Below, piece after piece: positions 1,835 through 63,238 of a DNA stretch of 64,000 nucleotides; position 1 is the first letter of the stretch, and each line of letters opens with the position of its first letter. Source of the DNA: Branchiostoma lanceolatum. Lineage: Eukaryota > Chordata > Leptocardii > Amphioxiformes > Branchiostomatidae. The stretch covers positions 5,358,001 through 5,422,000 of the forward strand of contig NC_089735.1 of assembly GCF_035083965.1 (NCBI RefSeq). Reading direction: 5' to 3'. The notes beneath the pieces are model-generated. The model was not told the origin of the DNA. It worked only from the letters and a program-made list of their open reading frames with translations, and ran no database searches. Made by a program: the position numbers and the translations under genes.

Positions 1835-7584
<5,750 letters not shown>

Positions 7585-22029: not shown

Positions 22030-26178
<4,149 letters not shown>

Positions 26179-31603: not shown

Positions 31604-32863
31604 ATGGCGCACTTGACACATGTGGCCAGTACATCATGAACTTGGCAGTAGTTTATGTAAGAGATATGTTAAGAATATGTAAGAGAACACCTTGTTACGC
31701 CAATGGCCACAAAGTTGACAAAACGGTGATTCTAAGCGTGTTAGCACACGCATACTATATATTTATTCAATGCTAATACTAGTACTAGTAATTATAAGTC
31801 TGAATCGAAGGAAACCGGCGTCAGGTAGTCAAAATGTTATGATACTACTTACCTCTAAGCAAACTATCTAAGGAAACCTTACCTATCTTAGGAATGCGTA
31901 AAAATCATCCAATGTATATCTAAGGTGTATACGTAGCGTCTGGTCATTTTTCTTAAAGGGCTGTAAGACTATCATGTAACGTCAACAATATATATCATAC
32001 TCAGAGGCCCGATAGTAAAAGTATATATTCAACGTTTAACAAGTATTGCAAAATCAACGAAGTTACAAAGTGTATCAAACACGCTCTCTAGCGATAAGGA
32101 ATATAATTGTCATGCATAGCTATAACAGGTGTAGTGTTCTGATGGAAAGATCTTGTCTGGTGAACGATGTTGTATTTTTCAGAGGATCGAAGCACCATTC
32201 TGGACATACAAATTAGATGCGAAAAGCAACCTTTATCTCTCTAAGATATAAGATTGATTGTAATAGATATTGGCGAAAATGGTACCATACTCATTATACT
32301 ACACGTGTGATATTGGTATTAATTTAGATTTATGCTGCTGGCATAGAAAGCTTATTCTTTTCGACAGCGGATGCTTCGATATAGTACACGTAATAAAACA
32401 AGTTCTGTCTCTGCCAGATACATGTATTTGCCTGCGTATTATCTTGCATACGGATCACCTGCGTCTTTACTTTGGGAAAATAGCAGTACCAAGTTAAACC
32501 TGAAAAGTCATGTCACCAGTTACAGTAGAATGATAGCGCGGCGACAGTTGCGGCAACATTCAGTTTACGAAGCCATCAATAGCTCACTTAACAGACACGA
32601 TTGGCCGTATCTCCAAATAATCAATAACTGATACTCCAATGGTTGACACGCAAATCTGCTGTCATCACAGGAAAATGTTTTCTCACGGGCAAAGTCTAAA
32701 GATTAGTCTTATCACGTTCCGCACACAGTGGCAGGTCACAAGACACACAGCTAATATGGTTAACTTCGACCCTTATACAGCCACGCACCCAACAACAGGA
32801 AGTCACACAGAGCTAGCTGTAGATATACGGCTTCGTAGTTTTTAGTCAGCTGTTGAGTGGAGA
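31604..32863. other. Intergenic region between the two saposin-like genes
   Basis: No coding exon, repeat or clear promoter motif recognised. Possible AATAAA at 32392 for SAPLIP1; no nearer canonical signal was seen. Confidence 0.5.
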
Positions 32864-35800
32864 ATGTATCGGTGGTCAGTTGTCTGCGTTCTTCTCTGTG
32901 TGCTGGGACACTGTGGTAAGTCACGGGTAACTAGCGTGGGTTTTCATACTACAAGGTACAGTTAGCTGGCAAACCTTTGTGACCTACATTTTTCGACCCT
33001 AAGCTTGACGCAGCGTCACAAGGTAATGGTATGGTATACAGTATACTGCCTCGTTCGTCCAGACCCTTGTAGTGTATGGTGCCACATATATAGGGCAGCA
33101 AGCTTCCTTGCTTGCTGTTTCAGTGGCAGGGTATATCTTCACACTTCAGGGAGGCACCTCCTCGAACAACTGACCCCCAGTTTACGTCCCTTCCGAGATG
33201 CCCTTCCTAGGATTGAACCGGGGTCTCCCAGTTACGAAACAGCACTATATTTAAAGCATGCACTGCGGGTAGCACAAACCTTAACATGCAAACACTTTTC
33301 CTCTATCTTACTGCATTACCACGAGTTTGTCACACATAGGACGGTGTTACAGTTCTATACCAAAATCAATCCGTTTTAGCATCCAATCATCTAATGTCAA
33401 ATTTACGTAGACGCCCGTTCACGTATGAATCTGCATAGCACAGTTATACTAGTGCTCATGAAGCAGCACGATCTTGTCTATTTACGAAATTTTTCGTCTG
33501 TAGCATCTGCGCATGTGCAACCCAGGGAGATCAGCAAACAAGCCTTCTCCATCCACACTAATGAAGTGCAGGATTTGAAGCAGGTAAGGGATTTACAAGG
33601 AAAGAAATTACAAAAAGTGACAAATTTGTCGTTTTTACGTGTTCATTGTTGTGTTGGATCACAGTTTAATCTCTAACTCAGTCAGCACTGAATGCCAGGA
33701 GAAAACATATTGATAGAATAAAAAAGGTTCCGCGTTGTAATAGTTTCGCGGTACCGGTAGTTTGATGTTGACCTGCGAAATCACGCCAATATTTTCTCAG
33801 ATCATGGTGCTACCTCAGATATATTTAAGTGGTCGTTATACGTCCTTATCATATATCCTTTTATATGACGTATACTATTAGTATTACGGTTACGTTTCCT
33901 AAATGGAGCAAAGAAAAATATATTCAAATCTTGTTGCTGTGCATCATTAAAATGTCAGTACAATTAGACATATTTCATACGTTTTCTTGTTTCTTCCCAC
34001 CTTTCTGTCAGTGTTTGGAGTGCCTGAGTTTGGGAGAAGCGGTGCGAGCGGAGCTGTCCAAAAGCGCCACCCAGCAGTTCATAATGAAACTGCTGGAGAA
34101 GGCATGCATGCTCCTGCCTACAGCCGAAAGCGCCCAGGTGATTAAAGGTCTATTTCCACTAGGATAAACATTTTCGCGTATTTCTGAATAATCAAAAGGA
34201 AATTCTATGGTCCTTTAACGGTCAGAAATACATACCGCAAGTATAAACGCAACGATATATATTACTTTCTAAGACTAAGAGAAAGAAAATCAGCCGCCCC
34301 CATACTGACATTAAATAGCATTGGGACGTTCACGCTAAAATCATTATCGAACTACTTAGATTAAGATGATCTTTGAAATACGTTCTTACTTCCACACTGT
34401 TTCTTTTGGGAGCACACTTCAATGTAAACGCACATGACATAAATTTGTATTGCATTGATTAATTTGCAAGATTTCCTCTTCGGCAGCGGTCTGTAGATGC
34501 CCTCTCAGTAACATATCTATGCATCCCCCACCCCCGATTGGATGTGACACACATGTGTTATTCTCTCCTATTATCAAAGTGCCTCCCTTGATCTACTGGC
34601 ACGCCTTGAGGAAGGTACAGGCGACTTTAGGGTCCAGGGTTTGCGAGTTCACATACAACGATTTATATCCCTGTCTTTCCCCGCAGTGTTTGAGCACGCT
34701 TGATAACGTAGGCCCGATGTTCATGGCGTACTTGATTGAAAAGCTGGAGCCGGCAGCAGTCTGTCGGGACTTGGGTATCTGTGACGCTTCAGGTGAGGCT
34801 GGAGACATTTGAAACAGATGCCGTCCTTTTTTTTTTTTTTTTTTGCTCCTCGAAGGGTTGTATACACGCTCAAGTGTGCATATCTTTCGTGTCAATCAGT
34901 GAAGCGTTAAGTAATTTGCAGGTTTCGTGGTCTTGCCAGGGATGTGTACTGCCAGTACTGTTACTCATGCAAGCAATGTATCCGAGCAACAAGCTGATAA
35001 CTACTGAACACATATATTTCTAATTTCTTCCCACTTAGGAAGTGCGCTGGCTAGAAAACACAGTAATAACTTCAAGGTGAGTTAAGAACGATTGTTTTGT
35101 TCCATATGTACCAATTCAATTTATGTATCAACAACCATAGTAAGGGGACAAACCATTGTAGATCAATTACAAAGATAAGAATATGTAGCCATAAATTGAA
35201 CATTGAAGCTGGAAGGTATCGTAAAATTCCCCGTGATCAAAGGTTTTGTCCATTCTGCCCAAATGAGATTGAAGATGAACGTCACTTAATCATGAAGTGT
35301 CCAAGATATGAGGATAAACGCTCAAAGCCATTCACTTTTATCTCCGCTTGTTCAAATGAATCAATGCGCTCCGTTCTGTCGATAGATTCAATTACATACT
35401 CGGAGGTGATCATCTCTACTGTGTACTGATAGGTATATACATCAAAGAATGTTTGGACATTAGAACAAGCAATGTATAAGTATATGACATGTGATATTTC
35501 GATATGTTGCTCTATCCCATATGATTGTGTGTAATCAAACTCATTTGTATGCACCTATTCGTTTGTATGTATGTATGTATGTATGTATGTATGTATGTAT
35601 GTATGTAGTAGACCTTACGAAAGTCGCTGTGCTTTTGTTGTGTCAATAAAGATCTTGTATAATCACGCGGGTTGCTGTTTCAAACAGTGAACGTATGTTT
35701 GCAAGTCGAGGCATATTTATATAAAAACGAGTACGTGTGTTGAAAACCCACTAATTACAGTCTTCCTCTGCTTCCCAAAAAAAGTCAAACCCAAAACATT

Positions 35801-45419: not shown

Positions 45420-48400
45420 CTACTGCTGGCACGTGTACAGTCTGGGTTTCCCCTCCACGACCACGTCTCTGCTGGGTCGGCAGGAGAGCTCCTCCTCGCA
45501 CGGGCACCTCTGGAACAGCTCGCCGGGCACCGTGCGCTTGTCGGGTCGGGTACAGGCGTCCCCTTGCGTCAGCATGGGCTTGCACACCTTGGAGAACCAG
45601 TGGCGCGCACAGCACAGCCCCTCCTGACAGTCGGACGACCTCAGGCACCGTGACCAAGCTGAACCTGAAACATACAGAACACACATGGTCAGCAACAAGT
45701 TGAACAAGAGCGGACTGAATTAAACAATATCAAACTTTCTTAACTTTACTTGAAATGTAACCCAAAAAGAAAGTAGCCTATATGAGCGACAAGAAGTAGT
45801 CGGTTCTTACCTCGCTGAAACGTTTCCTTGGTGTCCTGGAAGGTCTCTCGGCTGTCCACACTTTCAGAAGTCTCCTCCACCTCCGTCGCCTCCTCTCGTT
45901 CCTCTCCGTTGTCATGACGACGTCCCTCCAGTGCCACTCGTTCCCTGGGCCTGACGCAGATGCCGTTGAGGCAGGCGTTGCCCTTACAGCACATGGAGTC
46001 GCGGTTGCAGCGGCGGCGGAGGCGACGACACGGCAGGCAAACCTTCTCGTCTCTCCGGCCGTGACAGAACTGGTCAGCATCGCATGACTCGTCGTCAAAA
46101 CATCTCACCTGAAGAGTGGAATAAAAAGAACGACATTTGGTCAGACTAAGTGTTGAATACACATATACACACAAAAATTGACTACATTGATGTGTCATAT
46201 CTAATTCCGGCTACTTGAGAAGATATATTTGGCTGTAATGATAAAAAGATAGTCAAAAGCAAGACGTTACATCTTCCACATGACAATGATAACAGCTACC
46301 GGGCGGTCAACAAACTCTTCTTTGCAAAAGGGCGGGAAAAGGACGCAAAGCTTTGAAGTCCAGAGGTGAGAATCATCTGCTGGCGGGGTTCGATTTTCAC
46401 AGGTGTATTGTGGACTTTTCCGATCATCTGTCGAGTTTTTCACAGTTGACCCGAGAAGTATTGGCGTCTTTTTGACACAATCGGTAATTAAATCCATATA
46501 TTTGTGGAGATCTTTCTATGTGACTTTGTTGGTGTCCAATTGTCTTGGGGTATTAGCGTTTTCTGATCAAAGAATATATAGTCCCAATAACGATTGCTTG
46601 ATAAGCAATATTGTTATAACCTGCTCTGATAAAAATTGGCATCACGTAATGAGTGGATAGGATACAGAGAAAACAGACCGAAAGAAAACACATAGGCCAC
46701 GCGTTCATACCGACGGACGCTTTTCTGCACCGACATATGAACACACCAGGCGATAATGAGGCGTTCAAAGCGGTTAGTCTGAAGCCGCAAGACGCTGTAC
46801 CAGCGCCACGCGTTCACACACCCTTGTCGGGTCGTGTTGCACCTCCTTGTTAATACGCCGTGAGAACGGAGAACAAATCCTCAGCACCTCTCTAGGAAAG
46901 CCGCAACACCCCACTGTGATGACAACACCCCCTTTTTTCTCGCCCGCCAGGAAAAAAATCTCCTTCGATATTGCAGCCCTCACGCTCGCACTTCCAATGT
47001 CATTTCTACTACCAAAGGTGGGAACACAGCTCGCCGATGTGAACTCGGTAATTCTACCCGCGAAGAAAGAAGGGATTTGTGAGAGATGTAACAACTACCG
47101 ATCCTTTAAGACGGTTAAATCTTGTCACGGAAAGTCGCGAGGCTTTGAAGTGTTTCAAACAAAGACCAGGAAAGGCGTCTTCCCGGGGATCAGATTGGAT
47201 CTAACTGTCAAAACAGGCCAGGGAAACCAGTTGAAACGCTTCCGGATTTAACATTTGAGCCTGTGCGAAGTAGGGGTAAATGAAGGCGTGTGTAGCTGCG
47301 TAAAGAGAGCCTGTGACGTTTTAGGGAGGTCAGCAATTGTTGAACACATAACAATGGCCAGGGTGGCAAGGTATTATAGAAAGTCCATTGACTACGCTCT
47401 CTCACGACAAAAAAGGAGGACTAAGCGCGAACCAGGTTTAAGAAGAAAGAAGCAGTTTCACAGGGTCGTGCCAGATGAAAGAGGTTTGCCCTGTACCAAC
47501 TACCACCGGAGGTTCCGGCTTTTCTTCTTTCTGATGCTTTTCATCCCATCTTTTTTGCGGGCGACAAAAATAGCCACTGTATTTCAGAATAGAAACGTGG
47601 CTTTTCAACGTCTTTGAAGTTCCTACTCGGAACCCGTCAGAAAACGTTTCACAGTTTCGGACTAATTTCGGTCAGTACATGAGGAATTTCGCATAAAACA
47701 ACTGTCTTCGCCAAGGGCAAGGAATCACGGTTGATTTTTTACTGTTATGTGTGGAACTAGGCGCTCATTACCCTTTATATACGTGTTTGGGGCTCAATAT
47801 TGACTTCGGAAATCATCAACAAAGAGATTTGTTGTTGCTCACAATACCTGTCCATACCATAATTATACAAACTAAGACCACGGTGAGAAAGCGATGGCAC
47901 TTGTGGATTTTTTGTGAGTATTCAGCAAAAACGTACACGTATTGCACGTTTGCTTCGTACGATGTGCTTGTCACCTGAAAACTATGCAGCGAATCCGGAC
48001 GGTGACCTCACCCATGTTGCCGTTGATTATAATCATTTACAGTCTCATTAGACAAAAACTATAGTTCCCACTGACCAAATGGTCCTCCGTGTTGTGCTTG
48101 AGTCTGCACGCACTGAAGAACATCTCTGCGGCCACGTTTTGAATTTTTCAATTCAAGATACCGCGAGACACAACTGTCCAGCACTAAATATACGAATGGC
48201 TGAAATCCTAGCATGGATGCCAGACCCCCAATCTCTAAGATATCTATACGATAGGCTACTGAAATCCCAAAGGATCAAGGGTCGGCAAATTTTGTACAAG
48301 TGCACAGCATGTTTCAACAACTGCGTTTGTGTTAGGTGAACATGTTGCCAAAACAGAAACGCCGCCAGCGATAGCAGAATGGGTCTGATGTTTAGATAGA

Positions 48401-49572
48401 AACGGAAGACCTTTTCATGTCTGATGTACCGTTCGAAATAACAGCAAAGAACGTGATGACTTGGCGTATTGTCCACAAGTCCCTTTTGTAAGATCTTGTA
48501 AGGTGCGTAAAAAGCGAGTCTCGTGTGAAGCCTTTTCTGCAAGTTAAAATAAAACGTTTGAGTTTGACAACTACGCGCCCAGTTTATGTAGTAAATCAAC
48601 CCGTTGGTGGTTCTACACAACTTGTGTCCAGTATATCTTCACCTCCGAAAAGTTCAAAACGTCCGCGAAACGACCTTGGGACTCTCTGCGTTTTGCTGAT
48701 ATTAACTTCGCACTCAGGCCCCTCGGTGATTTCAACTGCCACGATGCATCACATCTTTCGCCACAGGTGCTGACGGACTAGGATTTGATCCATGAGCCAC
48801 ACGCTGTTTCCCAACACGCGGGGATAGAACCCGTGTCCGGGGGGTCACTGGTATCAGCCGGGCGACATTTGTCGGTACCCTTGTTCTACAAATTCACGGC
48901 TAAGCACCAAAAATCTCATGAATACAGGAATAAAATGAACGGCCGCAAAATGTACTCGATATTCTAACGTCGGTGCGTCCAAGCTTTGACCTCAACTACA
49001 TTAGTAAGGAATGTGACAGGTAAAATACTCTTTGTTACAAACCAAAAGCTATTTCTGACTAAATGCGTCAATAGCAGCCAAAGAAAGAATCACCCAAACT
49101 GCCAAAGCCTGTCAATGTGTAACCACGGCTGACCTCCAATGTAAAGTTTGGAGTGGCCGAATGTCAAACAAGTTTGTGGCAGTTACATCTAGCTATGGTA
49201 GGCTACCGGATCGGTTTGAACACGTGAAAACGTGTAGTAAGACTCCATATCCTCCGTCACAAGTGCCCTAGGCCTAAACGTCAGAACACGGATACAGGAA
49301 AGCCAAAAAGTAACACTTAAAGCTCGCCGATAAATAAAAACAAATAGAATAAGAAATGATTTCGAAGAACACCGAAGAATCATAACAGAACCTACCTCAA
49401 ATGTTTCTTCCTCTATCTCACGGCTGGCCTCGTTCTCCGTGGTCGTCGCGTTCCTACCGACCGTCTTGATGTGGTTGGTCGGCGACCTGACGTTGTTGCT
49501 GCCGACGACTTGTCGGACCATCACGGCGATCAAGACGGCGAGTACGGACAGCTGTAGCATGGAGATCGACAT
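45420..49572 (-). CDS. DKK1/2/4: Dickkopf-1/2/4-type Wnt antagonist (3 exons, 239 aa)
   Basis: Secreted modulator that binds LRP5/6 (and Kremen) to block canonical Wnt signalling. Minus-strand exons: 49572-49396, 46108-45811, 45664-45420; phases 0 and 1 join cleanly. Signal peptide about 1-24 (MSISMLQLSVLAVLIAVMVR). An acidic Ser/Thr-rich stretch leads to Cys-rich domain 1 (C62-C110, all ten cysteines, containing CLPCRRLRRRC and MCCKGNACLNGIC). A charged linker follows, then the colipase-fold Cys-rich domain 2 (C165-C237, ten cysteines: CLRSSDCQEGLCC, FQRCPC, LYTC). ARHWFSKVCKP keeps the His and Lys that contact LRP6 in vertebrate DKK1. Domain 2 assigns it to the 1/2/4 class and not DKK3. Length is within the 224-266 aa of vertebrate members. 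It lies upstream of, and in the same direction as, POLB's 3' end; human DKK4 also neighbours POLB. Confidence 0.96.
46109..49395 (-). other. Dkk intron 1 (3.3 kb)
   Basis: No repeat family or coding exon recognised. Donor GTAGGT and acceptor ...TTCAG are good. Near 48800-48880 the minus strand shows a B-box-like GGGTTCTATCCCC in a possible SINE relic, too weak to annotate separately. As the longest Dkk intron it is a natural place for enhancers, but no motif decides this. Confidence 0.5.
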
Positions 49573-49746
49573 CGTTGTGCTCAGTAGAGACGATCAGGTG
49601 AATAAAATAATCCAAGTCTACGGCGTGGACAAGTTTCGGGAAGATCCTTGTCGTAGAGCGGCTGACACGAGCGGAGGAGAGCGGGAGACTCGGACTGACT
49701 ATGCGAAGAACAGCACGAAGACTGACACAGCAGCGGCCAGACCGGG

Positions 49747-49754
49747 TTTAAATA
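49747..49754 (-). promoter_or_regulatory. TATA-like box of Dkk
   Basis: TATTTAAA on the minus strand (GGTATTTAAACCC), 175 bp upstream of the Dkk start codon, in a GC-richer context. It would place transcription initiation near 49720 with a 5' UTR of about 150 nt. A developmental gene with a TATA promoter is plausible; no transcript evidence. Confidence 0.5.
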
Positions 49755-52700
49755 CCAGCGCCGACCCGATACGTCAACTTGTGCGCTTTTTCATCAGAGC
49801 CGCACATGAGAGGACGGCCCGACGCTGTCAAAGATAATCTGGAATAATTTGCTTAATTACCTTGGCCAAACTTTTTGTCTGTAGTGACGGCGGGCGCCTT
49901 TGTGCGTTAATTTGCTCCCATGGTCCCCGGCGCGCGCTCAAAAGGAAAAGAAGGCGGGGCCTAATGGTAGTTATTGTTTCAGATGGGGGTTGCGGGTGTG
50001 TGTCGTGTCTACTTGTGGCACCTTCCGTGTGAAAAATTGACTGCCTTCTTTATTTATGGCGGCATTTCGCACGTCCTTGCTAAAAGTCGATAAAGTCCCC
50101 GAACTCCACCATAACTGTCCTCTTCTCTCATTGGTCTGTTCATTTTCCCGACCGTCAGGGTGTGCGTTATTGTGTACCGGCGGCATGTACAGCATTCTTT
50201 TAAGTGACAGCCACTCAATACCATTCATTTGGACTCAAAGGCACAAAAAAAATGGATTTTGTAAAGACTAGAATGGGATAGAAACAACAAAAACACTCTA
50301 CAGACGAAAAAGAAACGTGGCGCACACTTAGGAGAAGAAAAAAAGAACACAAAGAGAACATAGACGCCAAAGGTCGTCAATTTTCTTTCACTTGACGACA
50401 GTAAAAAAGTGAACTCCATGTGCTTTGTTGTAGGCTAAGACAAGACAACTATGAAATTGCAGACTAGTGTATAATCATCATTAGGACCGCAAACTCGTCG
50501 CCCCTTTGTACGCAGAAAAAAGCCAGGCCAGATCGATTGCCGTTGGCTTGTCTCCAACATAAGTGGGCGATGAGAAAATTGATACATGCATTCATTTCTT
50601 TTTCTCTGAAATTTAGCCGAACACTTTTTCCATTCCCATCGTATTTCGGCTGATTTCTGAGCACGACATATTCTTGGAAACAGAATATATAGAAATTAGT
50701 AGGGATGTCAGATTTACTCGATTTTTTTCACTCAAAGTTCATTTGAAGTGACGTGTCGGCACGGTGACTTTACACAGAACAATAGGTTCAGTCGCCCGTG
50801 TGATTGTCGCCATTTTTCTCCCCATTCGCACTGCTGTGACAGAGGTGGTCACATCGGGGTGATAATTAGGGAACGAGGCCCCTGGCGGGCTGAGAACCAC
50901 GCCGGCGGAGGCATGCGGGCAGTCATCCGGGTGGAAAGCCGCTAGCTGGCGGCACGATCGCTCCGGAACACCGAGGGAACATGGTTCAGTTTGCCGGGCC
51001 ATCTCCGACCATTCACGACAGAGGGAAGAAAATAAGCGAATTCTGTCTTAGTATTTCCTTGAAGAGAAAGGGAAGGGGATGTGCGGTTGATCGGACAGGA
51101 GGGAAAAAGGAGAGGTCGAAAACGTTCACATACATCCGTTCCTTCGACCACGAGTGTCAGACAAGTCCCAAATGTTTTTTCCTCACACCTGTCTATCAGA
51201 ACAGTTTCGTCTGTTTCCCAATGCACTGTCGTGTACGGGGCTCGCCGGACACCTGAATAATGATACCGGCGCCAGGGTAACATCAGGCCCGCCTCTAGCT
51301 GAGAAATATTCCACCCCGACTTTCTCACATACTTCCCGACAATTTCTGACCATTTTGTTACCGACGCAATCTAAAAGAATTCGACGCTTCCCTCCCTCAC
51401 CAGTACATGTGGCGATAGCGTCTGGAAAAGGGAGATTCCTTCTAGGCGTATTATTCTTCACTTCAGCCACGCGAGCTAGACTCATTAGCGTCGCTTGCTT
51501 GATTCAGAAAAACAGCTTAATGCCAGGCTTGTCAGTAAACATCTGTCGAATTCGTACTTACGACTTAGAATCGTATTCATCTTTGTTTTCTTTCTTTCTT
51601 TGCTTGTTTGTTACATTTTCCTTTGCACAACAGAAAAGCTAAATTGAGAAGAAGGCCACCCATGGTAGTGTCCTGTACGGGAGATCTGAGAACACATCAC
51701 GGACAAAAGGCTTATCGGAGAAACTGTATCAAAGTAATATGTGATTACCAGATTATCGCAGGGGTAAAAGGTGCCGACCTGTCCCAGGGGTACGGGCCGG
51801 ACAACAGGGAAGCGAGGGAAAGGCATGCGTGAAAAAAGATTCCGCCAAAAAGACCTCGGACGTAGAAAAAAGACGTGAAACCAAGCGGAACAGATGGACA
51901 CAAGGCGCCAGCAGGTCAAAAGGCTGGCTTTTATTCTCTTTTCTTCTTTCTCTTTTTACCTTTCTTTCTTTTCCTGGGTGTTCAGGTAGAGGTGTGTCCG
52001 GCCCTAAGTAACGCACGTTTCACATGACGTCAACCTTGGACATGGACCGGCTATAAAAAGACATTGAAAGTTGACAGTTACGGGCGCGGCGGCCGCGTAT
52101 GTACTTGAACCGTACAACTTAAAGGTCATCGATGAAACAGCAAGCAGGTCCTCTTTTCTTACGATACATCTTTAATTCTTTGCTGTAAGGTTCCAAAAAA
52201 TGCATTGTCTAGCCTATCTTCAAAGATTCTCATGATACGATTTTCTTTGTGAAAATCACCTGTACATGTGCCAATCATCTTATTCAGATCATATAAAATC
52301 ACGCCATGAAAACCAGTATCTAATGTCTCCCTGCCGCTGGCTTTGTTTTTACTGAACTGGAACCCTCCACGGGAGTTAAGTTATGAAAAGTGAAACTCTT
52401 TTGGAGATTTGATGAATCAAAACAAACAAAACCCTAGATCGCCTCAAGGCTTATCCTTGACTGACAGGACAATCGGACTGTTTATTGCGAAGTAATCAAC
52501 AAATACGAATCACTTTGACGTAATTGGCGCACTCAAGATTTACCTTTCAATCTACCGCACAAAGGATTCGTCAAAATAAAGCGAACCAATTGTCACTCAA
52601 TAGAATAAACGTCTCAATCGTTCTGTCTTTTGTTGAGAGATATCAAAGGCTCTTTTTGATTGGCTTGTTTATCACACAAACGCAACAGTTGGTGGTAAAC

Positions 52701-53844
52701 AATGGCCATATGTTGTATTAGGTACTTGACTCGAGTGCAACTGGAACGTTGCAGAAAGTTACAAGTACATTTCAACACTGTAGTGTCAAACTCTACGGCA
52801 CGGACTGGGAAGGATGGCGCGCGCGTGTCTGTGTTTGTGATGGGAGAAGAAAAGACTACCGCCGAATTTACATGCCAGTGGTCCTATGTTCAACTCCCTT
52901 TGTTTATCTTACAGGTCGAAACAAATATTTAAAAGAAATAAATATCATCGGCTAGAAATCTGGCAATATTTGCAGGATAAACGAGTAGTTCACTAACTAA
53001 ATACAGCAACTAATGAATTAACGAATTGATCAATTTTTTCATGTGACGTGTTACATATTATACATGCCAGCCGCCATGCATGGTTGGGAGGGCCTTTCAC
53101 ATTTGTCCCACGATATGCTTACGTCATATCCAGGACATTCTGGGGACCGCCGTGGACATACAGTACAAACATAAGTTGTCTTGTGTTGGGAAATGTTGTC
53201 GTATATCATTTTCGACGATCGACACTCTCATTGGAAAATCCTACAACAAAACAAAAACCCGTACAAGGAATAATTGTTGTAATTATTCTCTCTAACGGAC
53301 TAACTGTAAGACGGGCTGTACGAAAACGTCTTGGGATTTTCTTACATCTATCTACTTGAGGATTAATAAGGATGGTTACAAGAATGTTCTGTCGCTTCAA
53401 ACTTTACTCAAGGCGAAACCCGTATATGTAGCGTCTTTCACTTAACATTTGTACTAAGGTGCAGTTTACATTTTTACATAGTTTACGTCACTCCTTCTTC
53501 CCTCGCCATAGGCAATACACCTGCAAACATTCGGGAACGCCACAGCAGTGACTTCACCGATTACGGCAGATAAAACACAACAGCTTGGCTTTTGTGGCCA
53601 TTTATGCGCGGAGGAGAACAAACAAGAGGCTAATAATTTCTAACAATGACCCGTTCACGTCACCTTGGGGTGTTTATGGAGGAATGACAGTAACACCTGT
53701 GCGTGGTGTGCGGTGGAAAACCGTGGGACACGGGAGGAGAGACACAGGTGTGTTCTCAACTTCTCATCAACACAAAAATGCACCAACACTACCGAGGAAA
53801 ATTACTCAGGAATCCTACTCGTCTTTCGACACTCGACCTTGTTG

Positions 53845-53905
53845 AAAAGCGGCCTTATGGCCGAGCAAGCTGTCGAGGTGAAATAAAGGATTTGACTTGA
53901 CTGGA
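53845..53905 (+). mobile_element. Possible retrotransposon 3' terminus
   Basis: GAAAAGCGGCCTTATGGCCGA and GTGAAATAAAGGATTTGACTTGACT has the layout of a non-LTR element end: a small hairpin (GCGGCCTTATGGCCG), AATAAA, then a short tandem TTGACT tail. No coding part was identified upstream. Confidence 0.4.
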
Positions 53906-55799
53906 CCGTTTCAGGTTGTAGAAGTTTGCTTTCATGATGAATTCGAAAGGATGATGATAGAACAATGTATTGGTATTTCTCAAGTTGAGAGATATACTTG
54001 AGTGTCAAGTCAAATTGACAAACCATCCATACCCGTAACTACATTTTAAAGTCAAATAATTGAGTATATATACTAATACAGGAACTTCATTCAAAAGGCG
54101 AGACCAAATCATCACTACGACATTGTTGTTGCCATACATTGTACACTGTACTATTGTCGAGCAATAAAGTTCGTTCGTAGTACTTCGTACACTTTAGTGC
54201 CATGAAATGAGTAGGTGAAGTTCAAAAGGTCACGACAGTACCCCTTGTAACCTGTAATAGATGACACAAATATTGCCGCACCACGTCAGCTTATCGCTGT
54301 ACCAGATCGGTGAGGTCATAGGGATGGAGTGTTGAATATGTACAGTTTGCCCTTGCCGCTCGGAAATGGTCTTTATTTGGGTAAATGAACATGAGATAAG
54401 AATCGCGGGCCTGTCCTCGCTATGAGGATAAATGGTGATGACAACTGTGTAATGGAATGTAGGAAAACATTGAACGTTTGTTGGATGCCACGATGTTGGT
54501 CGGTCGAACATGGCAGAGTTAGTTTAAACTTGCATGTGTATAATGTGTTGAAACGTCATTTAACGTTATCAATCATCATTCAAACTCATAGACCATGCTT
54601 TAAAGTTTAAAATGACCTGGGTTCCCTTTGATTCAGAAGCATTAAGAAGATAATAAAGTTGAGCCGAGGTCAAATCAAGTTTCTCTCATATTCAAAAACA
54701 TATCATTTAAATGAAAGAAATGATGTCGCTTTATTGCTTGACTTTGATGGACATGTTTTTCAGCAAAATGAAATCATTACTTTTAAGAAAAAAGTGATGA
54801 TGATCAGAGGATTCATATATATATATATGAATATATGTGAATAATTCAAAAGATTGAACACAAGGCAGGGATTCTCGTCCTCTTTTGCTCATACTCTCTA
54901 TTTCAGTTATGTTCAAAGTGCGGAGAAAACTCATCATAACTGAGGGTACTACGAACACATAGAGCTCAGCTTTGTTTACGTTATGAATCATAAGTAAACA
55001 CAGCGGGGCTCTAGGTGTTCGCAGCACCCTTAGAAACCCTATCCCCAGCTCTATCTCCCCTACTTCTCCGGAAACTGCAGACGTGGGTTGTGTGATCCCT
55101 CACTTTGATCCACCTGCAGCGTGATTCACAGCCCGGGCCTGCGCGGCTGGTCCGCCATTCACACCGGCTTTACCCGGCTTAGGCCGCCAAAACTTTCAAC
55201 AAAACGCGTGCGTCAGTGGATCGGCCGCCGGTGGTTTGTTGATGCACGGCTCGCTTGTGGCGGCGTTCTGGCGTGAAGAAACAAATTTGTGCAGGCTCTG
55301 GACAGGAAATGAGAGGGTGAAGAGTTCACGGGTCCGTCCTGCTGACCAGACCAAACACCTTAGGAAAATATGGGTCCGACAACCTTTCTTGTTTTCGTCC
55401 GTTCACATCAATTTGATTGTTCGCGGTAAAATGTCATGATAAGTAGGCAGTAATCACTGTATTTCAGATCGGTAGAACCAACTAACCAACAACGAAATCA
55501 ATTTAGTCAATCAATCAATCAAGCAATCAATCGATCTAACAAGTATCATTCACATCTGTAACAGAATCAAAGAAAATTAAGTCACAAATTTGAAGGGCGG
55601 ATTCATGACATTTGAAGAAACCATTCAACTTGTCATGACATGAAAGTGTCTAAAGCTAGATTGGAAATAAAACATTATATCATAACCTTTCATAGACAAT
55701 AAAAAAGAAAGTGGCCCTAAGCTGTGCAGATAATTCTATGCCAGAACTAAGAAACAAAAATCTGACAAGAGCTTTTCGATGACTCGTTGAAAGAAAAAC

Positions 55800-56060
55800 C
55801 GTTCTGTGGCGTCGAGTGGCTAGGCTAGAGAACTCGAGATCTAGAGTTCATGTGTTTGATTCCTTGCATTTCTGGCTATACGTTGTGTCCTTGGGAAAGG
55901 CACTTAACACGACTTTACTCACTCCACCTAGGTGTAAAATGGTACCTGATATCGGTTGGCGAGGTAAATAAGCGTCGCCTTCCAAAACCTTGCCCTAGAG
56001 GCCTAAACACAAACCACTGCCTCAAAAAGACTATGCTATGGGACTACATTAACCGTAAAA
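55800..56060 (+). mobile_element. tRNA-derived SINE, family 1 (most complete copy)
   Basis: A-box-like GAGTGGCTAGGCTAG, a B box GTGTTTGATTCC, then GTTGTGTCCTTGGGAAAGGCACTTAACACGAC, ACTCACTCCACCTAGGTGTAAAATGG-TACCTGATATCGGTTGGCGAGG, and an A-rich 3' end (AAAAAAAGAAAC). It serves as the reference for the copies at 2735 and 8885. Confidence 0.72.
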
Positions 56061-56639
56061 AAAAGAAACAGAAGCAAACCAAACGTTACATCCTCATCAT
56101 CATCCTCCGGTTCGTTACACTCATAAACACCTGTTTCCCTTACAATCCTCCAGAGGGCGTTGTGCGATGCAGCTTGTGTAAATCACTGTCAACCGGGGAA
56201 GGTTAGAGAGCTAGAAAACATTCGCGGGATGATTGGGTTGGCACCTCTTCAAAGAAAGGACGGTTCCTGAGCGTCGAGATAGGCGGGTCAAGCCTGAGTC
56301 ACTCCACAGAACTTTTAATCGGTTGTCTTGTTCCGAAACCACAGTCATTTTCACCACAATAAATCCTGCAAATGAGGAGTAATTACGGTAAATGGGAGGA
56401 TGATGTGGCGACTGTGGCCAGATGAAGGGGACAGGAAAGACGGCTGTATTAACGGTAAGTGGGGCTCGGACGTCCGGTAACATGCCTGCCGTATTGACAG
56501 GGACAGAGCAGATGTGGCGTTCTCGGAAATGATAATCCACGCTTCCAAAGGAGAGACAATTGGAGATAGAACTAGATGGAGAGAGATGGGGAACACAAGG
56601 AAAAATTTGTGTGATATTTGACTCATGCTTTTCAGTCAA

Positions 56640-56885
56640 CACTGCCCCTCTAAGTCTTTGTAGGTCAACTGGTAGCAGCCTCAAAGTTGAGCTCCTGGTT
56701 TCACTTAGTTCTAACCAGTTGCAGGAAACCCCAGTTTAATCCTGGGCAGGACATCTCGGTTGGGACTGCACCCGTTTTTTGGTAGGGATGTAAAAGGGGG
56801 GTCCTGTGTTTGAGTAGGTGCCAGTTAAAGGGAAGGGGCTATGTCCCACTAGCCACTACAACTAAGTTGAAACAAACGAACAAAC
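56640..56885 (+). mobile_element. tRNA-derived SINE, family 2
   Basis: GTAGGTCAACTGGTAGCAGCCTC (A box), GAGCTCCTGGTTTC, CCCCAGTTTAATCCTGGGCAGGACATCTCGGTTGGGACTGCACCC, GGGATGTAAAAGGGGGGTCCTGTGTTTGAG, then GGGAAGGGGCTA and AACAAACGAAC. These are the same blocks as at 59568, 61572 and 62020. Confidence 0.8.
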
Positions 56886-57179
56886 AGACGAAGATGATGA
56901 TGCAAACAGTTGTAGATGTTAGAGTGTATAACGAAGTCGCACAGGTGAAGGGAGCCAGAAAGTTATACTTAGTCTTAAATTTGTCCTAAGATGGAAATCG
57001 ATGCCTAAGCAGAAACACTTGTACTAGTACTGAATAGGGGAGAGGCACAAAACTTAAGAAGAAATAACAAAAAAAACAAGTGGGAGGTTTCCCATGTATT
57101 CTACGTCGTATCCTTGACAGTTGGATTAATTCACATGGAAGATACAAAGGTTAACTTGAATAACAACTATAAATGTGAC

Positions 57180-57213
57180 CAAGGAGGTTTTATATATATA
57201 TAAAACCTCCTTG
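57180..57213. other. Perfect 34-bp palindrome
   Basis: CAAGGAGGTTTTATATA followed directly by its exact reverse complement, with no spacer. It has direct TGTGAC repeats on both sides (57175 and 57215). It could extrude a cruciform or be the fused ends of a foldback element. Confidence 0.9.
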
Positions 57214-58262
57214 ATGTGACATATTGAAGAGATAGAAGCATGATTTTCCTCAGTGCAGTAAGCATTGAATATGACTTGAATTATGCATACTCCCAATTTG
57301 GTACTGTCAACAGTAAGCAATAAAAGTTTGGCAATACATGTACCAATCTGAGGAATCTCTACAGTGCACACTTAAAAATGCCAATGATTCTACCACATAA
57401 AACAAGGCAGCTGTTCAGTGTCATTTGTTCAGAGGTTCCGCCTTGCTTCCTGAAACAGATATACACAGAAGTGTAATGTTAAAGTTACAGGCCAGCTGTG
57501 ATAAGGTAGATTAAAAAACACCAAAGACTGCCAACTTTTGTTTAAGCTACAAGCAAGACTTTCTTTTACCTTGTGTGAACATTGGACTTGATTGCTTTAT
57601 AAATCATACAATATGAGATAGCTGTCTGACCAAGAGTGCATCTCACTAACGTTACATGTACAGTATTATCATCCTTCTGCTTGCTTATCTACTCCATACA
57701 CACAATGTATCAAACAGTAATGGCAGTTGAGGAAAATATGTCAAGGGGTTGTCTTTCTTTTCTTGCATCACTAAAGAAATTAAAGACTTGTTTTGGGGTT
57801 TGCAGACTTCCATAAATCTTAAATACAATGATGTACCACAGATTTTCTAAAAAATACATTATAAATGTTGCAATACATGTGCTTCACAATTTCTCTGCTT
57901 GTATCTATCATGATAGTGAAAGACTATTATTACCCTAATGATGCTAAAGAAGACCTAGTTGCTTCATGTTCAACTTTATGGTTATCTTTGGAAGAAATTC
58001 ATGAAGAAAGAGTGTTGAAATCTATGTAGGAATTTCCAGTAAAGCATGATTGATATGTACTAAAACATAAGTTTCAACAACATTTTTAGATACATGAGCA
58101 CATCTGTTAGATTAACCTTTCCATACAGAAGACGGTACAACTGCACAGAATACCAGTCAATGTTCAAAACTATCACCCCTTTTTAACAGTAGAAAAGTCA
58201 AAATTCAGTGAGAGACTGGATGCTACCACCAAGATGCAGGGGTGTTAAGTGACGATTGGTTA

Positions 58263-61200
58263 TTATTGGCCTTCACTCCTCTGTGAAGGCTTCAGGTACT
58301 TCATGCCAATGATGTCAAAGACGTCTTCTTCTGAGCTGACAGGTAAGGCTTCACCTGGCACACCTGTAAGGTATGGGGGAGGAATAATGATATATTTACA
58401 TAACAGTACTACAAATAGAAACCAGAGAAATACAGTGTTTGCCTTGCATTTGGTAGGTCATGAGTTTGATCCCCAGCTGAGTCATACCAAAGACTTGATA
58501 ATGGTATAAACTGTACTTTCTGCTTAGCACTCAGCACTTGGGAAACAGCATGGTTTAAACACACAGCACTAGCCCCCTAGTGTAGTGATTGCACAAAGCT
58601 GTGTGTCCCAAAGACTATTGGAACAGAGATGAGTGCCGTCCAATGCACCAACTGGTGCAGGAAGGACTTTAACTAAGTACAAACATAGTTTAGACACAAA
58701 ACCGTTAAGCCTTTGCCAAATACAAAACATTCTGAAACAAAAATAACACAAGATTCTATTTGCTTTGGAGGGAATTTACAACATATCAACTGAAGTTTTT
58801 GATTTTCTGTAGTTACAACAAACACCCATACAGAAATTCTTCATTGGTTTTAACTTTAAGTACTAGGAGAGAACAATTGTGGTTGACTGAATCAGCAACG
58901 CTGTCTCCACTTAACCACTGTCATATATATAAACACTGTCATTGTCCTAAACAAGTTATAATCTTCCTACACTATCATATTCATCAATCAATTGGTCAAA
59001 CTTATGTCGATGAAGGTTAGACATCCAGATAGGAAGATACGCAAGACAACAGATACTCAAGCAACTGGATGGATTCAATTATCTTGCGTAATTGGTCAAA
59101 CTTTATGCATGTACCTGACCCAGAAGTTTTAGTTGGAGAAAACTAGGATTTAGACGGGCTATCGAAAATGAATATTGGGTAGTTAAACTTAAGCTAAAAA
59201 AAGCACTACCCAGTCTTCATTCTATATATGAAGCTTCATCTTCATTTATGGACTTTTGGAATCTTTTAATACAAACTTTTTGGCATTCATTTGTTTAAAT
59301 TTTCAATGATGCACAAGCCAATAAATGAAGTGTACAGCAATGTGCAATTTAAGAAACAAACTGACAGAGAAAGGATGCCATTGCAAGTTTCACGCTGAAT
59401 AGATAACAGCTATTGTTAACTAGTCCAGCACTAATAGCTGGAATTTAGACTCTGTAAAATGAGATCACGTCTGCCAGAAGGAACAGTTTTTTAAACAAAG
59501 GTGGGCAGGTTATACATTCACACTCAAAACTTCTCTGGTACAACAAACACATTGAATTTTCAGACATGGGATGTCCCTGTAGCTCAATTGGTAGCAGCTC
59601 AGTTTAGCTCCTGGTTCTAATCAGTTTCTAACTTGGAGAACTGGGTTTACGCCTGGAAGGGGCATCTCAGTTGGGGCTGCACCCCCCCTTCGGAAGGGAC
59701 GTAAAATGGGGATACCATGTTTGAGGTAGTGCCTCAAGTGTGTTAAAGGCGAAGGGCTGGAGACCCCTTCCTGTAGAAATATACCCTGCTACTGAAACAG
59801 CAATGAGACTTGCTGACCTATGAGCCACTAGGCATTACAAAGGTCTGAACTGATAAACGAACATAACCATTATATGATAATTTTGTCATGAAATGGTTTC
59901 TATCTGGTGACCATCAATTGTACTTAAACTACATAGCCAGAGCAACCATCTTCTACACCCAGTAAAAATCCTACACACAAAACTTCCAGTCTGGTCTTAC
60001 GCAGCTTGTATTTGACTGGTTATTCAAAACAAACAAATAAACAAACAAACAAACACCCACCTGTGCTCCCCATGGGACGGATGGTGTACTCGTTCAGAGT
60101 GAAGCCCTGCTCCAAGGCGTGAGCTCTCATCTTCTTGTTGAAGACATCGCTGCCAGTGAAGTACAACACTCCACAGTAGTACTGGTCATTGGGCAGCAAT
60201 CTGTATTGTAAAGAGGTAGAAAGTACAGTCAAAATATTCACTGTACTTCACGGTTTAAAAAAAAGATTTCCATGGGTTGTTACAAGGAATAGATCAACAA
60301 AGGTAACATTTGTCTTAAACATACTGAGAGACTTTTGCAATTTGACGTGCAAAGACTAGGTGTGACAGGCCGTTCAGTGTAATATAACCAGCTGCTGCCG
60401 CACCGTGTGCCTGCGAAGCTGGTGTGTTACCCCGAATGGCAGTTATACCATCTATATAGATACAAATTCTCTTGATCTCCTTTAGATACAAATAACTAAG
60501 AAACAATACAGCAACTGCTCAAAAAGATCCTGCAATCCTTGTTAATCTTGAGCTTTGAGTTTGACATGCTGAAATATCTGCACATGCAAGTATCTAATCA
60601 TTACACAATGGTAGCAGTTACTGCAATGTTCTCAATACTACTATGGCCTTCCATGTGAATGTTTGTTGCCTGTTTGAAAGAGTTGCAGTGTAAACACATT
60701 TCATTTTACGATATGCAATAATTACAGTAACTTTAGTACCCATACCTGATGTCAATTCTCCTGAACACTCTCTCCGTACTACTTTTCCCAGCAGGCAGTC
60801 TGCAGACACCCTTTGTGAGAAAAACAATTGTCTGAGGCATGACCTTGATTTCCTTTTTTTCCAAACTTAACTTATTTGCCTGTTTTGCTTCATAAAAAAA
60901 AGGTAAAGCAGGCATCCTCAATTCCTCTTCCTCTTCCTGTTGTAGCGACCGCTATCATCTTGTTGATCATTCTGTCGCTATCTTGAGGTGAAGCATAATA
61001 CTTTTTCAAGTAGCTAGTGGTAGTGCAATGCGGCTTCGCCACGGCCAAGCACACCGGGTCATATCTACTCGTAATATAATTTCAAAAAGGTGTTTATCTG
61101 ATGAAAATATCATATGTAACAGGCAAATACAATATTCATACAGGACATGCATCAATCAGATCGAAGAAGACATAGATAAACCATACAAAAACTTTGTGTA

Positions 61201-63238
61201 GACTTCACCATTGGTCTGTTTCCTTATATTCTGTTATTCTATATATCTATGGTCTGTTAAATTACAACAAACTTCTCACCATGAACTTAGTGTCCCCTAG
61301 GGAGATGATGTCCAGAAAATTTCCCCGGTGTGTATCGGGTCATAGATGAACCGTACAAAAACCTTGTGTAGACTTCACCATTGGTCTACTTTTCTTATAA
61401 CAAACTTCTCACCATGAACTTAGTGTCCCCCAGGGAGATGGTGTCCACCACAAACTTGCTTTTCTCCAGGTGCTGGACAACCTGCTTCAGAAGCTCAGGC
61501 TGAAAAAGTGGAACACAAGAGCTACAGTTACCGTAAGTCGTGAGACAGTGGTTCTATCATGTTGACCTCTCAGACTGTCCCTGTAGCTCAACTGGTAGCA
61601 GCCTCACAGTTGAGCTCCTGGTTCCAATTAGTTGCTACCTGGGAGACCTCGGTTCAGTCCTACAAGCTGCACCTGTCTTTCGAAAGGGACGTACCGGTAA
61701 AATGGGGGTCCTGTGTTCAAGGAGGTACATGTACCTCTGACATAGGTACCAGTACTGTAGGTACAATAGAATACAGAGAATTGTATTCGAAGTCATGACC
61801 ATAAACAATTTGTATCAATCTCAAAATGCAACTCAATGAAGCACACTTTCTAGTTTGTTTTCACGTATTCATCTACAAAGGAAAATGAATCTGTTGCTTT
61901 GCAACTCATGTGAGACACCTATCAGTCCATCTATGTACTGCAGTACAGATCAGCTTGCCTTGTAGTGTTACATTTGTTACTTACATAAAGACAAGTACGT
62001 GGATTAGATGTCAGATGCTAGAGGGATGGCCCTGTAGCTCAACAGGTAGCAGCCACACACTTCTCACAGCTGAGCTCCTGGTTCCAATCACCATAGTTGC
62101 CTTTTGAGAGATCCCCGGTTCAATTCTGGGAAGGGCATCTCAGTTGGGGCTGCACTGGTCTTTCGGAGAATGTAAAATGGGGGCCCCATGTTTAAAGGGG
62201 AAGGGCTAGCAACCCCTCCCTGTAAAAATATACCCTGCTATTGAAACAGTAAGATGACCTTCTGCCCTATGTGCCACTAGGGCTACAACTTAGGAGTAAA
62301 GGGAAATGTAAGATGCCAGAATCTATGGTGCAAGGAAAACAGACTACTGTACCTTTTTCTTGTCCTCGCTGGAGTAAGAGGAATGGGTCAATAGGATATC
62401 AATGTCACCACTTGATGACGCTCCTGTAACAAGTGATAACAGTTACTTAGTAGTTTATCTAGTACATCACATAAGTTTCAATGGCAATTTGCCTTTACAC
62501 AGGCGATAAGGTTAAGACATTTCAATTGTTGCATATTTGTTTCAGTGACTGTGATGATGATGATGATGATGTTACAACTGTCTCATTTCTGTGCTCAAAT
62601 AAAAACAAATGCATGTAAACAAACTCAAACAGATACATAGAGTCAGTTGGAAAGCCTGTTGGCATGTACACTGCTTGAAATGATACAAAGTAATGGAAAA
62701 GGAGAAATGTTTGCACTAGGGGGAAAATGAAATGTTCACAGTGGTTCTATGTTTGTGGTTACAAAAAGGGTGTAGGTGGGTAGAAGACAGAACAAAAATA
62801 TTCCCAGTGGTTTTAAGTCCGCAGTGAAGAGGTCAACGTGAAAACTGCAAACATAAAACCACCGAGAACATTTCCCCTTTTTCAGTATTCCTGAGAATGT
62901 GTCATTTTGGTCCAAAGTACTGTAAATGCAGACATTTTTGCGGTTGTTTTCTGTTCGCAGTTTTCGGGGTAAGCTCTTTGCTGCGAACTTAAAACCACCA
63001 CAAACATCTTTTCGCTGGTGTTTCTGTAGTACTACTAGTACTATTGTTTCAAATGCAAACTCAAAACCATCATGAACACTCCATTTTCTCCCTACTGCAA
63101 AATTAAAACCCTGCGAACTGAAATGCATTTACAGTATTCTATATGTATTCAAATCATATTCCCACCTCTTCTGAAGCTGCCACAGATTGTGGCTACATAG
63201 TCAGTGTCCAGCTGGTTGATATCCCCTTGAATCAGGGA
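58263..63238 (-). CDS. POLB: DNA polymerase beta, C-terminal part (6 exons seen; 5' end off window)
   Basis: Family X polymerase that fills one-nucleotide gaps in base-excision repair in the nucleus. Minus-strand exons: 63238-63166, 62423-62353, 61499-61413, 60810-60746, 60200-60061, 58363-58263. They join into 178 codons, matching residues about 158-335 of the human enzyme (335 aa); the lyase and fingers domains lie beyond the right edge. Visible: ICGSFRRG (dNTP-phosphate contacts), [11 protein letters not shown] with both palm aspartates (Asp190/192 in human), DTKFMGVCRLP, RRIDIRL with the third catalytic Asp256, [25 protein letters not shown] (thumb, with the conserved Asn279 and Arg283), NEYTIRP, and a C-terminus [17 protein letters not shown]. 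Nothing is broken. The introns hold three family-2 SINEs and a decayed partial copy of exon 61413-61499. Upstream neighbour unknown; downstream is Dkk. Confidence 0.97.
58430..58670 (+). mobile_element. tRNA-derived SINE, another family (weak)
   Basis: In a POLB intron. GTAGGTCATGAGTTTGATCCCCAGC holds a B-box-like GTTTGATCCCC, followed by GAGTCATACCAAAGACTTGATAATGGTATAAACTG and CTGCTTAGCACTCAGCA-TTGGGAAACAGCATGG. The layout is SINE-like, but no second copy is in this window. Confidence 0.45.
59568..59868 (+). mobile_element. tRNA-derived SINE, family 2 (near full length)
   Basis: Starts GATGTCCCTGTAGCTCAATTGG (A box). It continues GAGCTCCTGGTTCTAATCAG, GAACTGGGTTTACGCC (degenerate B box), GAAGGGGCATCTCAGTTGGGGCTGCACC, GGGACGTAAAATGGGG, AATATACCCTGCTACTGAAACAG and GAGCCACTAG, and ends in AACGAAC. 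Antisense to POLB. Confidence 0.85.
60357..60462. mobile_element. Short foldback repeat, family B, copy 2
   Basis: In the POLB intron between exons at 60200 and 60746. CTAGGTGTGACAGGCCGTTCAGTGTAATATAACCAGCTGCTGC...GAAGCTGGTGTGTTACCCCGAATGGCAGTTATACC aligns end to end with 16979-17062. CCGTTCAGTGTAATATAACCAGCT pairs with AGCTGGTGTGTTACCCCGAATGG. Confidence 0.65.
61171..61448 (-). pseudogene. Partial tandem duplication of a POLB exon and flanking intron
   Basis: 61343-61448 (intron plus the 3' half of the exon 61413-61499) is repeated at 61171-61313. Both units carry CATAGAT-AACC-TACAAAAAC-TTGTGTAGACTTCACCATTGGTCT and the exon-donor block. The extra exon piece (61313-61279) still reads [11 protein letters not shown] with a GTGAGA donor. 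It has lost its 5' half and acceptor, so it should not be spliced in. The left unit contains a 37-bp AT-rich insertion. Confidence 0.85.
61572..61765 (+). mobile_element. tRNA-derived SINE, family 2 (3'-truncated)
   Basis: TGTCCCTGTAGCTCAACTGGTAGCAGCCTCACAG, GAGCTCCTGGTTCCAATTAG, GGGAGACCTCGGTTCAGTCC (B box), TTTCGAAAGGGACGTA-GGTAAAATGGGGGTCCTGTGTTCAAGGAGGT. The later ACCCTGCTACTGAAACAG part is missing. Antisense in a POLB intron. Confidence 0.85.
62020..62290 (+). mobile_element. tRNA-derived SINE, family 2 (full length)
   Basis: GATGGCCCTGTAGCTCAACAGG (A box), GAGCTCCTGGTTCCAATCAC, GAGATCCCCGGTTCAATTCTGG (B box), AAGGGCATCTCAGTTGGGGCTGCAC, TAAAATGGGGGCCCC, AAGGGGAAGGGCTAGC, AATATACCCTGCTATTGAAACAGTAAGATGACC and GTGCCACTAGG. 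Antisense in the POLB intron between exons at 61499 and 62353. Confidence 0.88.
62705..62885. repeat. Dispersed family C, internal part
   Basis: GAAATGTTCACAGTGGTTCTATGTTTGTGGTTACAAAAAGGG...CAGTGGTTTTAAGTCCGCAGTGAAGAGGTCAACG and the inverse AAAACTGCAAACATAAAACCACCGAGAACATTTCCCC. The two halves form an imperfect hairpin. It lies directly beside, and is related to, 62918-63136. Confidence 0.65.
62918..63136. mobile_element. MITE-like element, family C, with intact terminal inverted repeats
   Basis: 219 bp bounded by perfect 13-bp inverted repeats: TACTGTAAATGCA at 62918-62930 and TGCATTTACAGTA at 63124-63136. The interior repeats GCGAACTTAAAACCACCACAAACA-type blocks, also seen in inverse orientation nearby and at 18590-18715. 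Sits in a POLB intron, 30 bp from an exon. Confidence 0.75.

Follow-up and report, generated by a model that had tools for sequence, protein, structure and literature searches.

Adjacent POLB and Dkk1/2/4 genes in a lancelet: a probable remnant of an ancestral chordate linkage

Do the neighbouring genes POLB and DKK4 of jawed vertebrates owe their position to a linkage that predates the duplications of the vertebrate genome? The question is raised by the stretch of lancelet DNA analysed here (64,000 bases, hereafter the window), in which a Dickkopf gene is found next to a gene for DNA polymerase beta. In an earlier note, made from the letters of the window, this pair was compared with human POLB–DKK4 and conclusions were drawn on the age of the linkage and on the fate of DKK1, DKK2, and DKK4. 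Below, the identity of both genes, the place of the Dkk gene in its family, the comparison with vertebrates, and the stretch between the two genes are described.

The two genes

The Dkk1/2/4 gene is complete and occupies 49572–45420 of the minus strand with three coding exons. Splice sites of the GT/AG type are present at the internal exon boundaries, and an uninterrupted frame leads from ATG to TAG and encodes 239 aa. Coding exon 1 (49396–49572, minus strand), which was assigned from the frame, the GT donor, and a motif, encodes a hydrophobic leader followed by an N-terminal stretch with NHIK. Coding exon 2 (45811–46108, minus strand) encodes the first cysteine group, CRD1, with 10 cysteines, and the linker, as evident from Dickkopf_N (64.3 bits) and a match to CRD1 of DKK4. 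Coding exon 3 (45420–45664, minus strand) encodes CRD2, with another 10 cysteines, and the stop, on the basis of DIKK1-2-4_C-subdom1 and 2 and matches to CRD2 of DKK2 and DKK1. The hydrophobic N-terminal stretch, MSISMLQLSVLAVLIAVMV, at the start of the product is a probable signal peptide. The 20 cysteines of the protein thus fall into two groups of ten, CRD1 and the colipase-like CRD2. The N-x-I motif is an LRP5/6 contact located N-terminally in DKK1, DKK2, and DKK4, and the term ‘NXI motif’ is used in connection with LRP6, DKK1, and sclerostin. In the window protein NHIK takes residues 33–36, and a second N-x-I (NGI, 107) is situated inside CRD1.

Profile and structure searches point in the same direction. 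Dickkopf_N of Pfam matched with 64.3 bits over a cut-off of 25, and both DIKK1-2-4 C-terminal subdomains matched with 50 and 41.5 bits over a cut-off of 27. In controls with human sequences, DKK4 and DKK1 carried both subdomains (67.7 and 42.9 bits in DKK4) and DKK3 carried neither, which bears out the assignment to the 1/2/4 type made in the earlier note. Among the seven distinct PDB sequences that matched the protein (E up to 1), six come from Dickkopf proteins and one is of prokineticin type (E 0.0029). CRD2 matched DKK2 at 6.2e-22 and DKK1 at 2.2e-21, and CRD1 matched DKK4 at 1.2e-11. The NCBIfam scan of the protein returned no match. The product is most likely a secreted, LRP5/6-binding Wnt antagonist; the domains and cysteines are observed in the translation and the binding is read from the family. 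As a separate observation, CRD2 (45664–45420) reads ARHWFSKVCKP where human DKK1, DKK2, and DKK4 read ARHFW-S/T-KICKP, that is, with the aromatic pair swapped; the histidine beside this pair is an LRP6-contacting residue.

The second gene, POLB, runs on the same minus strand from 63238 to 58263 and is represented by its last six coding exons including the stop, which encode 178 aa of palm and thumb. All six were assigned from the frame, Pfam, and structure-sequence matches. The palm is encoded by the exons at 63166–63238, the most 5′ exon in the window, 62353–62423, 61413–61499, and 60746–60810; the exon at 60061–60200 belongs to palm and thumb, and the last coding exon, with the stop, at 58263–58363 belongs to the thumb (all minus strand). 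The best match is the DNA polymerase beta chain at E 9.5e-77 with 109 of 174 aligned residues identical, while the best pol lambda reaches 9e-33 among the best 60 of 89 matches. By these sequence comparisons the polymerase gene is POLB and not pol lambda, and its product is most likely the base-excision-repair polymerase. The gene is partial because the window ends; the 5′ exons, and with them the 8-kDa lyase domain, would be located past base 64000, and inspection of the final 770 bases by eye, in all three minus-strand frames, showed no further exon. A tandem duplication was also observed in POLB, at 61171–61330 and 61341–61500, that places a copy of the 3′ end of the exon 61499–61413, splice donor included, in the intron downstream of it. 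A polymorphism may be the cause, or two haplotypes may have been merged in the assembly.

The two genes therefore adjoin as had been claimed, and both identities, the order, and the strands are confirmed, with 8,690 bases between the 3′ end of POLB and Dkk. The bounds given for the pair in the earlier note, 45420 and 63238, are exactly the end of the Dkk stop and the edge of the most 5′ POLB exon found. The layout described there, a complete Dkk gene, 8.7 kb free of genes, and then POLB, stands for the complete Dkk gene and for a gap with no credible protein domain, with the qualification that POLB is partial here.

The Dkk gene within its family

Identities of the window protein are 79/173 to DKK1, 67/168 to DKK2, 64/165 to DKK4, and 49/129 to DKK3; in sequence, DKK4 is not favoured over DKK1 or DKK2. 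The best tree of the five sequences places the window Dkk outside DKK1+DKK2+DKK4 with low support. The split that joins DKK1+2+4 without the window gene obtained 91/86, which is below the mark for a firm branch, in a tree with a very long DKK3 branch, and it drops to 71.7/55 when the 128 gap-free columns are used. Ten tree orders were compared by topology tests. Three of them fell below 0.05 in the AU test: window+DKK4 was part of two (0.045 and 0.041), window+DKK2 of the third (0.046). The KH and SH tests rejected none. A clade of the window Dkk with DKK4 is thus rejected marginally, by the AU test only (0.041–0.045).

Orthologues of dkk1/2/4 in cephalochordates and hemichordates, and loss of the gene in protostomes, are reported in PMC11414264, which agrees with a lancelet source. 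The amphioxus dkk1/2/4 of PMC8586503 and PMC11414264 shares, as far as these passages go, both subfamily and animal group with the window Dkk, which is most likely that gene or its orthologue. The same passages of both papers do not describe the chromosomal neighbours of amphioxus dkk1/2/4. A different possibility is that the window Dkk is a lineage-specific or dkk5-type gene rather than the pro-orthologue of DKK1/2/4, so that the likeness to the human pair would be superficial. Cephalochordates do possess a dkk5 subfamily according to PMC11414264 (passages), and the five-sequence tree is weakly resolved (71.7/55) and contained no dkk5 sequence. Against this, the window protein exceeds the cut-off of the two C-terminal models specific to 1/2/4 (50 and 41.5 bits), human DKK3 scores neither, and the 20 cysteines in the two-domain pattern occur together with the N-terminal NHIK. 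Such an identity for the gene is extremely improbable. A search with a Dkk pattern in collections of bacterial/archaeal and viral contigs gave 18 and 1 stretches, respectively, with no relative among them.

Age of the linkage and the vertebrate loci

The order POLB–DKK4–VDAC3 is described as highly conserved in human, soft-shell turtle, and whale shark in PMC10967326, the single paper from which the jawed-vertebrate evidence for POLB–DKK4 is taken. The adjacency of human POLB and DKK4 cited in the earlier note agrees with this report of the pair from human to whale shark (PMC10967326). In alligator, IKBKB (printed ‘IKBK3’) is given in place of POLB beside DKK4 (PMC10967326). The species sentence of that paper names human, alligator, turtle, Xenopus, and zebrafish; the whale shark is unnamed in it, and the DKK4 region of the last two species is unmentioned, for which reason the paper is relied on with care. 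The 3′ UTR of human IKBKB is located upstream of the POLB start (PMC12810902, in part). With IKBKB on the 5′ side of human POLB, DKK4 should be on its 3′ side, as is Dkk in the window. The window and the jawed-vertebrate block POLB–DKK4–VDAC3 accordingly have in common a Dkk1/2/4 gene immediately next to POLB, on its 3′ side. They differ in that no VDAC was seen beside the window Dkk, where a saposin-type gene is the next recognised one, and in that the window would contain one pre-duplication Dkk rather than an ohnologue. Human POLB and DKK4 are on opposite strands; in the window POLB and Dkk are on one strand. The comparison is between one lancelet window and a published vertebrate order, and the window ends before the IKBKB side of POLB.

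The split of lancelets and vertebrates precedes the vertebrate genome duplications. Since the pair is present on both sides of this split, the simplest reading is that the two genes were already linked in the chordate ancestor and underwent one inversion later. The claim that the linkage predates the duplications is therefore upheld as far as the pair in lancelet and jawed vertebrates, with the same 3′ side, suggests it. On orientation, the single strand in the window is observed, and one inversion is the simplest reading of the difference from human. We consider it fairly probable that the window holds the lancelet copy of an ancestral chordate POLB–Dkk1/2/4 pair, followed by duplication, losses of POLB beside DKK1 and DKK2, and one inversion. 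POLB with a single pre-duplication Dkk1/2/4 at its 3′ end would go back to the ancestor shared by lancelets and jawed vertebrates, and common descent would account for the pair in both. In the vertebrate line the POLB–Dkk block would have been duplicated with the whole genome, POLB being kept only beside the DKK4 copy and presumably lost beside DKK1 and DKK2. A single inversion, of Dkk (or POLB), would have taken place in either the lancelet or the vertebrate line, and the lancelet genome would contain one Dkk1/2/4 gene. No shared function would be needed for such a history, as slow rearrangement would suffice for the adjacency.

Alternatively, POLB and Dkk1/2/4 could have been carried on one ancestral chromosome and have become neighbours independently in lancelets and jawed vertebrates. 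The different strand arrangement would fit with such convergence, and so would the other four recognised adjacencies in the window, which are unlike human 8p11. A lancelet chromosome holds ~1,400 genes. With this gene number, chance adjacency of two given genes is ~2 in 1,400 (~1 in 700), and the chance becomes roughly 1 in 50 when five adjacencies and three vertebrate Dkk loci are allowed; in both lineages, moreover, the 3′ side of POLB is the one that Dkk occupies. Chance adjacency is possible and is not the best reading; we regard independent arrival as rather unlikely.

What the ancestral linkage implies for the three vertebrate loci was put differently in the earlier note, where the DKK4 locus alone was taken as ancestral in position, with DKK1 and DKK2 as relocated or differently retained copies. 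Whole-genome duplication leaves every copy where it was, and differences between the loci arise from the neighbours lost. PMC4042849 groups DKK1, DKK2, and DKK4 in a single family of 2R ohnologues, and the human genes are assigned to one homologous chromosome group in PMC10967326. With the three listed as 2R ohnologues, all three loci probably descend from a single ancestral locus and differ in their losses. That POLB is found beside DKK4 alone then reflects its survival at this locus and no move of DKK1 and DKK2. The special standing of the DKK4 locus is hence not borne out, as 2R-ohnologue status and POLB loss explain the pattern with no relocation and the window protein is not closest to DKK4. 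Of the two options offered for DKK1 and DKK2, relocation is not supported, and differential retention suffices, through loss of the extra POLB copies.

Among the titles, abstract openings, and passages searched, with most subscription journals outside the search, no published report of the lancelet POLB–Dkk pair was found. Neither Polb nor Dkk is mentioned in the passages available of the hemichordate genome paper PMC11175523, nor POLB or DKK in those of PMC6784235 on amphioxus lincRNA microsynteny, and the literature on the paralogon around ANK, VDAC, and SGMS offered nothing on the subject by title and abstract opening. The POLB–Dkk pair resembles deuterostome microsynteny blocks such as the pharyngeal cluster (PMC11175523, in part) in an adjacency kept since pre-vertebrate times, and differs from that cluster in that its genes are functionally unrelated and were observed in one species. 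It is a sound but ordinary, modest example of ancient microsynteny and, taken alone, one more conserved adjacency. If ancestral, the lancelet pair would be a fixed anchor for tracing the loci of DKK1, DKK2, and DKK4 through the genome duplications, and it would point to the flanking DNA in which the original Dkk control elements may be sought.

The intervening stretch and the other genes

The intergenic stretch from the Dkk ATG to the POLB stop (49573–58262, 8,690 bases) contains no credible protein domain by the Pfam scan of its open frames: for 54 open frames of at least 58 aa the sole match to E 0.01 was a family of unknown function (0.0083). On the other side, between 35.1 kb and the Dkk stop, there are 39 frames of at least 62 residues. 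Thirty-six of these, with three on a GT/AC repeat near 36.7 kb omitted, were scanned over the 10.3 kb past the Dkk 3′ end and gave two chance-type Pfam matches (E 0.0013 and 0.0027). Isolated Pfam matches in open frames to DUF4489, PapC_N, and Phage_FRD3 were dismissed as of chance type. A short-exon or non-coding gene is possible in the gap or between 35.1 kb and Dkk. As a check on the linkage, the presence of VDAC or SLC20A homologues nearby had been suggested; neither was seen by Pfam in the 36 frames over the 10.3 kb beyond the Dkk 3′ end or, for most of the remainder, by eye. Rfam and tRNA scans gave no match. An interspersed element is found in four copies, at 56641–56830, 59551–59840, 61561–61680, and 62011–62290, with a tRNA-like start (TAGCTCAACTGGTAGC ... 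GGTTCAATTC), and is perhaps a tRNA-derived SINE.

The stretch also bears on the idea that POLB and Dkk are held together by regulation, with Dkk enhancers in POLB introns or in the 8.7 kb gap and breaks selected against. Developmental genes often keep bystander genes in place, which lends the idea some plausibility. The gap has 17 CTTTGWW (TCF-like) sites where 9.0 are expected, and 4 of 300 first-order resampled sequences reach 17. The excess is mild, however: outside the gap the window contains 70 of these sites, or 11.0 per 8,690 bases, and 3 of 82 same-size windows off the gap (overlapping, 38.0–47.7 kb) also reach 17. In the whole scan 18 of 111 windows of the gap size did so, most of them overlapping the gap. 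The count concerns a single motif in a single species. In human colon organoids, moreover, high-FST variants near a POLB indel were tied to expression of POLB and not of DKK4, according to passages of PMC12810902. The excess of TCF sites neither supports nor excludes a regulatory bond, which we consider distinctly unlikely. A more far-reaching version, which is very unlikely in our estimate, would derive the adjacency from a deuterostome or bilaterian ancestor and have it kept by Dkk enhancers in the POLB introns and the gap, with POLB as bystander and DKK4 as the one vertebrate copy still using the original block.

Four further genes, all on the plus strand, were recognised in the window; their extents were set by eye, and the intervals among them were mostly read by eye. 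A GAPDH gene of several exons (2235–7584) is supported by Pfam, sequence matches, and primer sites. An FBXO7-like gene (15293–19428) has an F-box by Pfam, a Pro/Gly-rich tail seen by eye, and a weak match of the FP domain to F-box only protein 7 (E 0.044), while its frame 15293–15538 gave no Pfam match. A cathepsin D-type aspartic protease gene (22934–26178) rests on Pfam and sequence matches. A saposin-domain, prosaposin-like gene has some Pfam support at 33829–34812 and by eye may extend over 28562–35020. In its six frames SapB_2 was above the Pfam cut-off (2.5e-06) and SapB_1 below (0.0051), four frames having no match, and the similarity to surfactant protein B and prosaposin is weak (E 0.008–0.39). 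Human GAPDH, FBXO7, cathepsin D, and prosaposin are located at 12p13, 22q12, 11p15, and 10q22, respectively, and none of them is known as a neighbour of human DKK4. Of the five adjacencies between recognised genes of the window, only one matches human order. The saposin-type gene is the next recognised gene past Dkk on the side away from POLB. Human PSAP and DKK1 are both on 10q, which is at most a hint that the saposin side of Dkk echoes the DKK1 locus.

The GAPDH region (2.0–7.7 kb) was also compared with published lancelet GAPDH primers for B. belcheri (PMC5116582), B. lanceolatum (PMC6224433), and B. floridae (PMC8361754 and PMC10794066). Seven of eight primers fit, with 0, 2, 2, 1, 3, 1, and 2 mismatches, and the eighth has 7; in 60 shuffles per primer the best place averaged 6.4–8.7 mismatches. 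None of six control GAPDH primers from passages on Ciona (PMC10258323), Xenopus (PMC6784235), and tilapia (PMC4463629) fits (4–8 mismatches). The seven fitting sites encode the expected GAPDH residues, for example VVSSDF. The fit speaks strongly for a lancelet without singling out a species: mismatches were seen with primers from each of the three lancelet species, and the window GAPDH could be a paralogue. Two tandem arrays were observed in addition: ~27 copies of a 21-base unit at 125–692, and ~18 copies of a 47-base unit at 28819–29674, near or inside the saposin-type gene.
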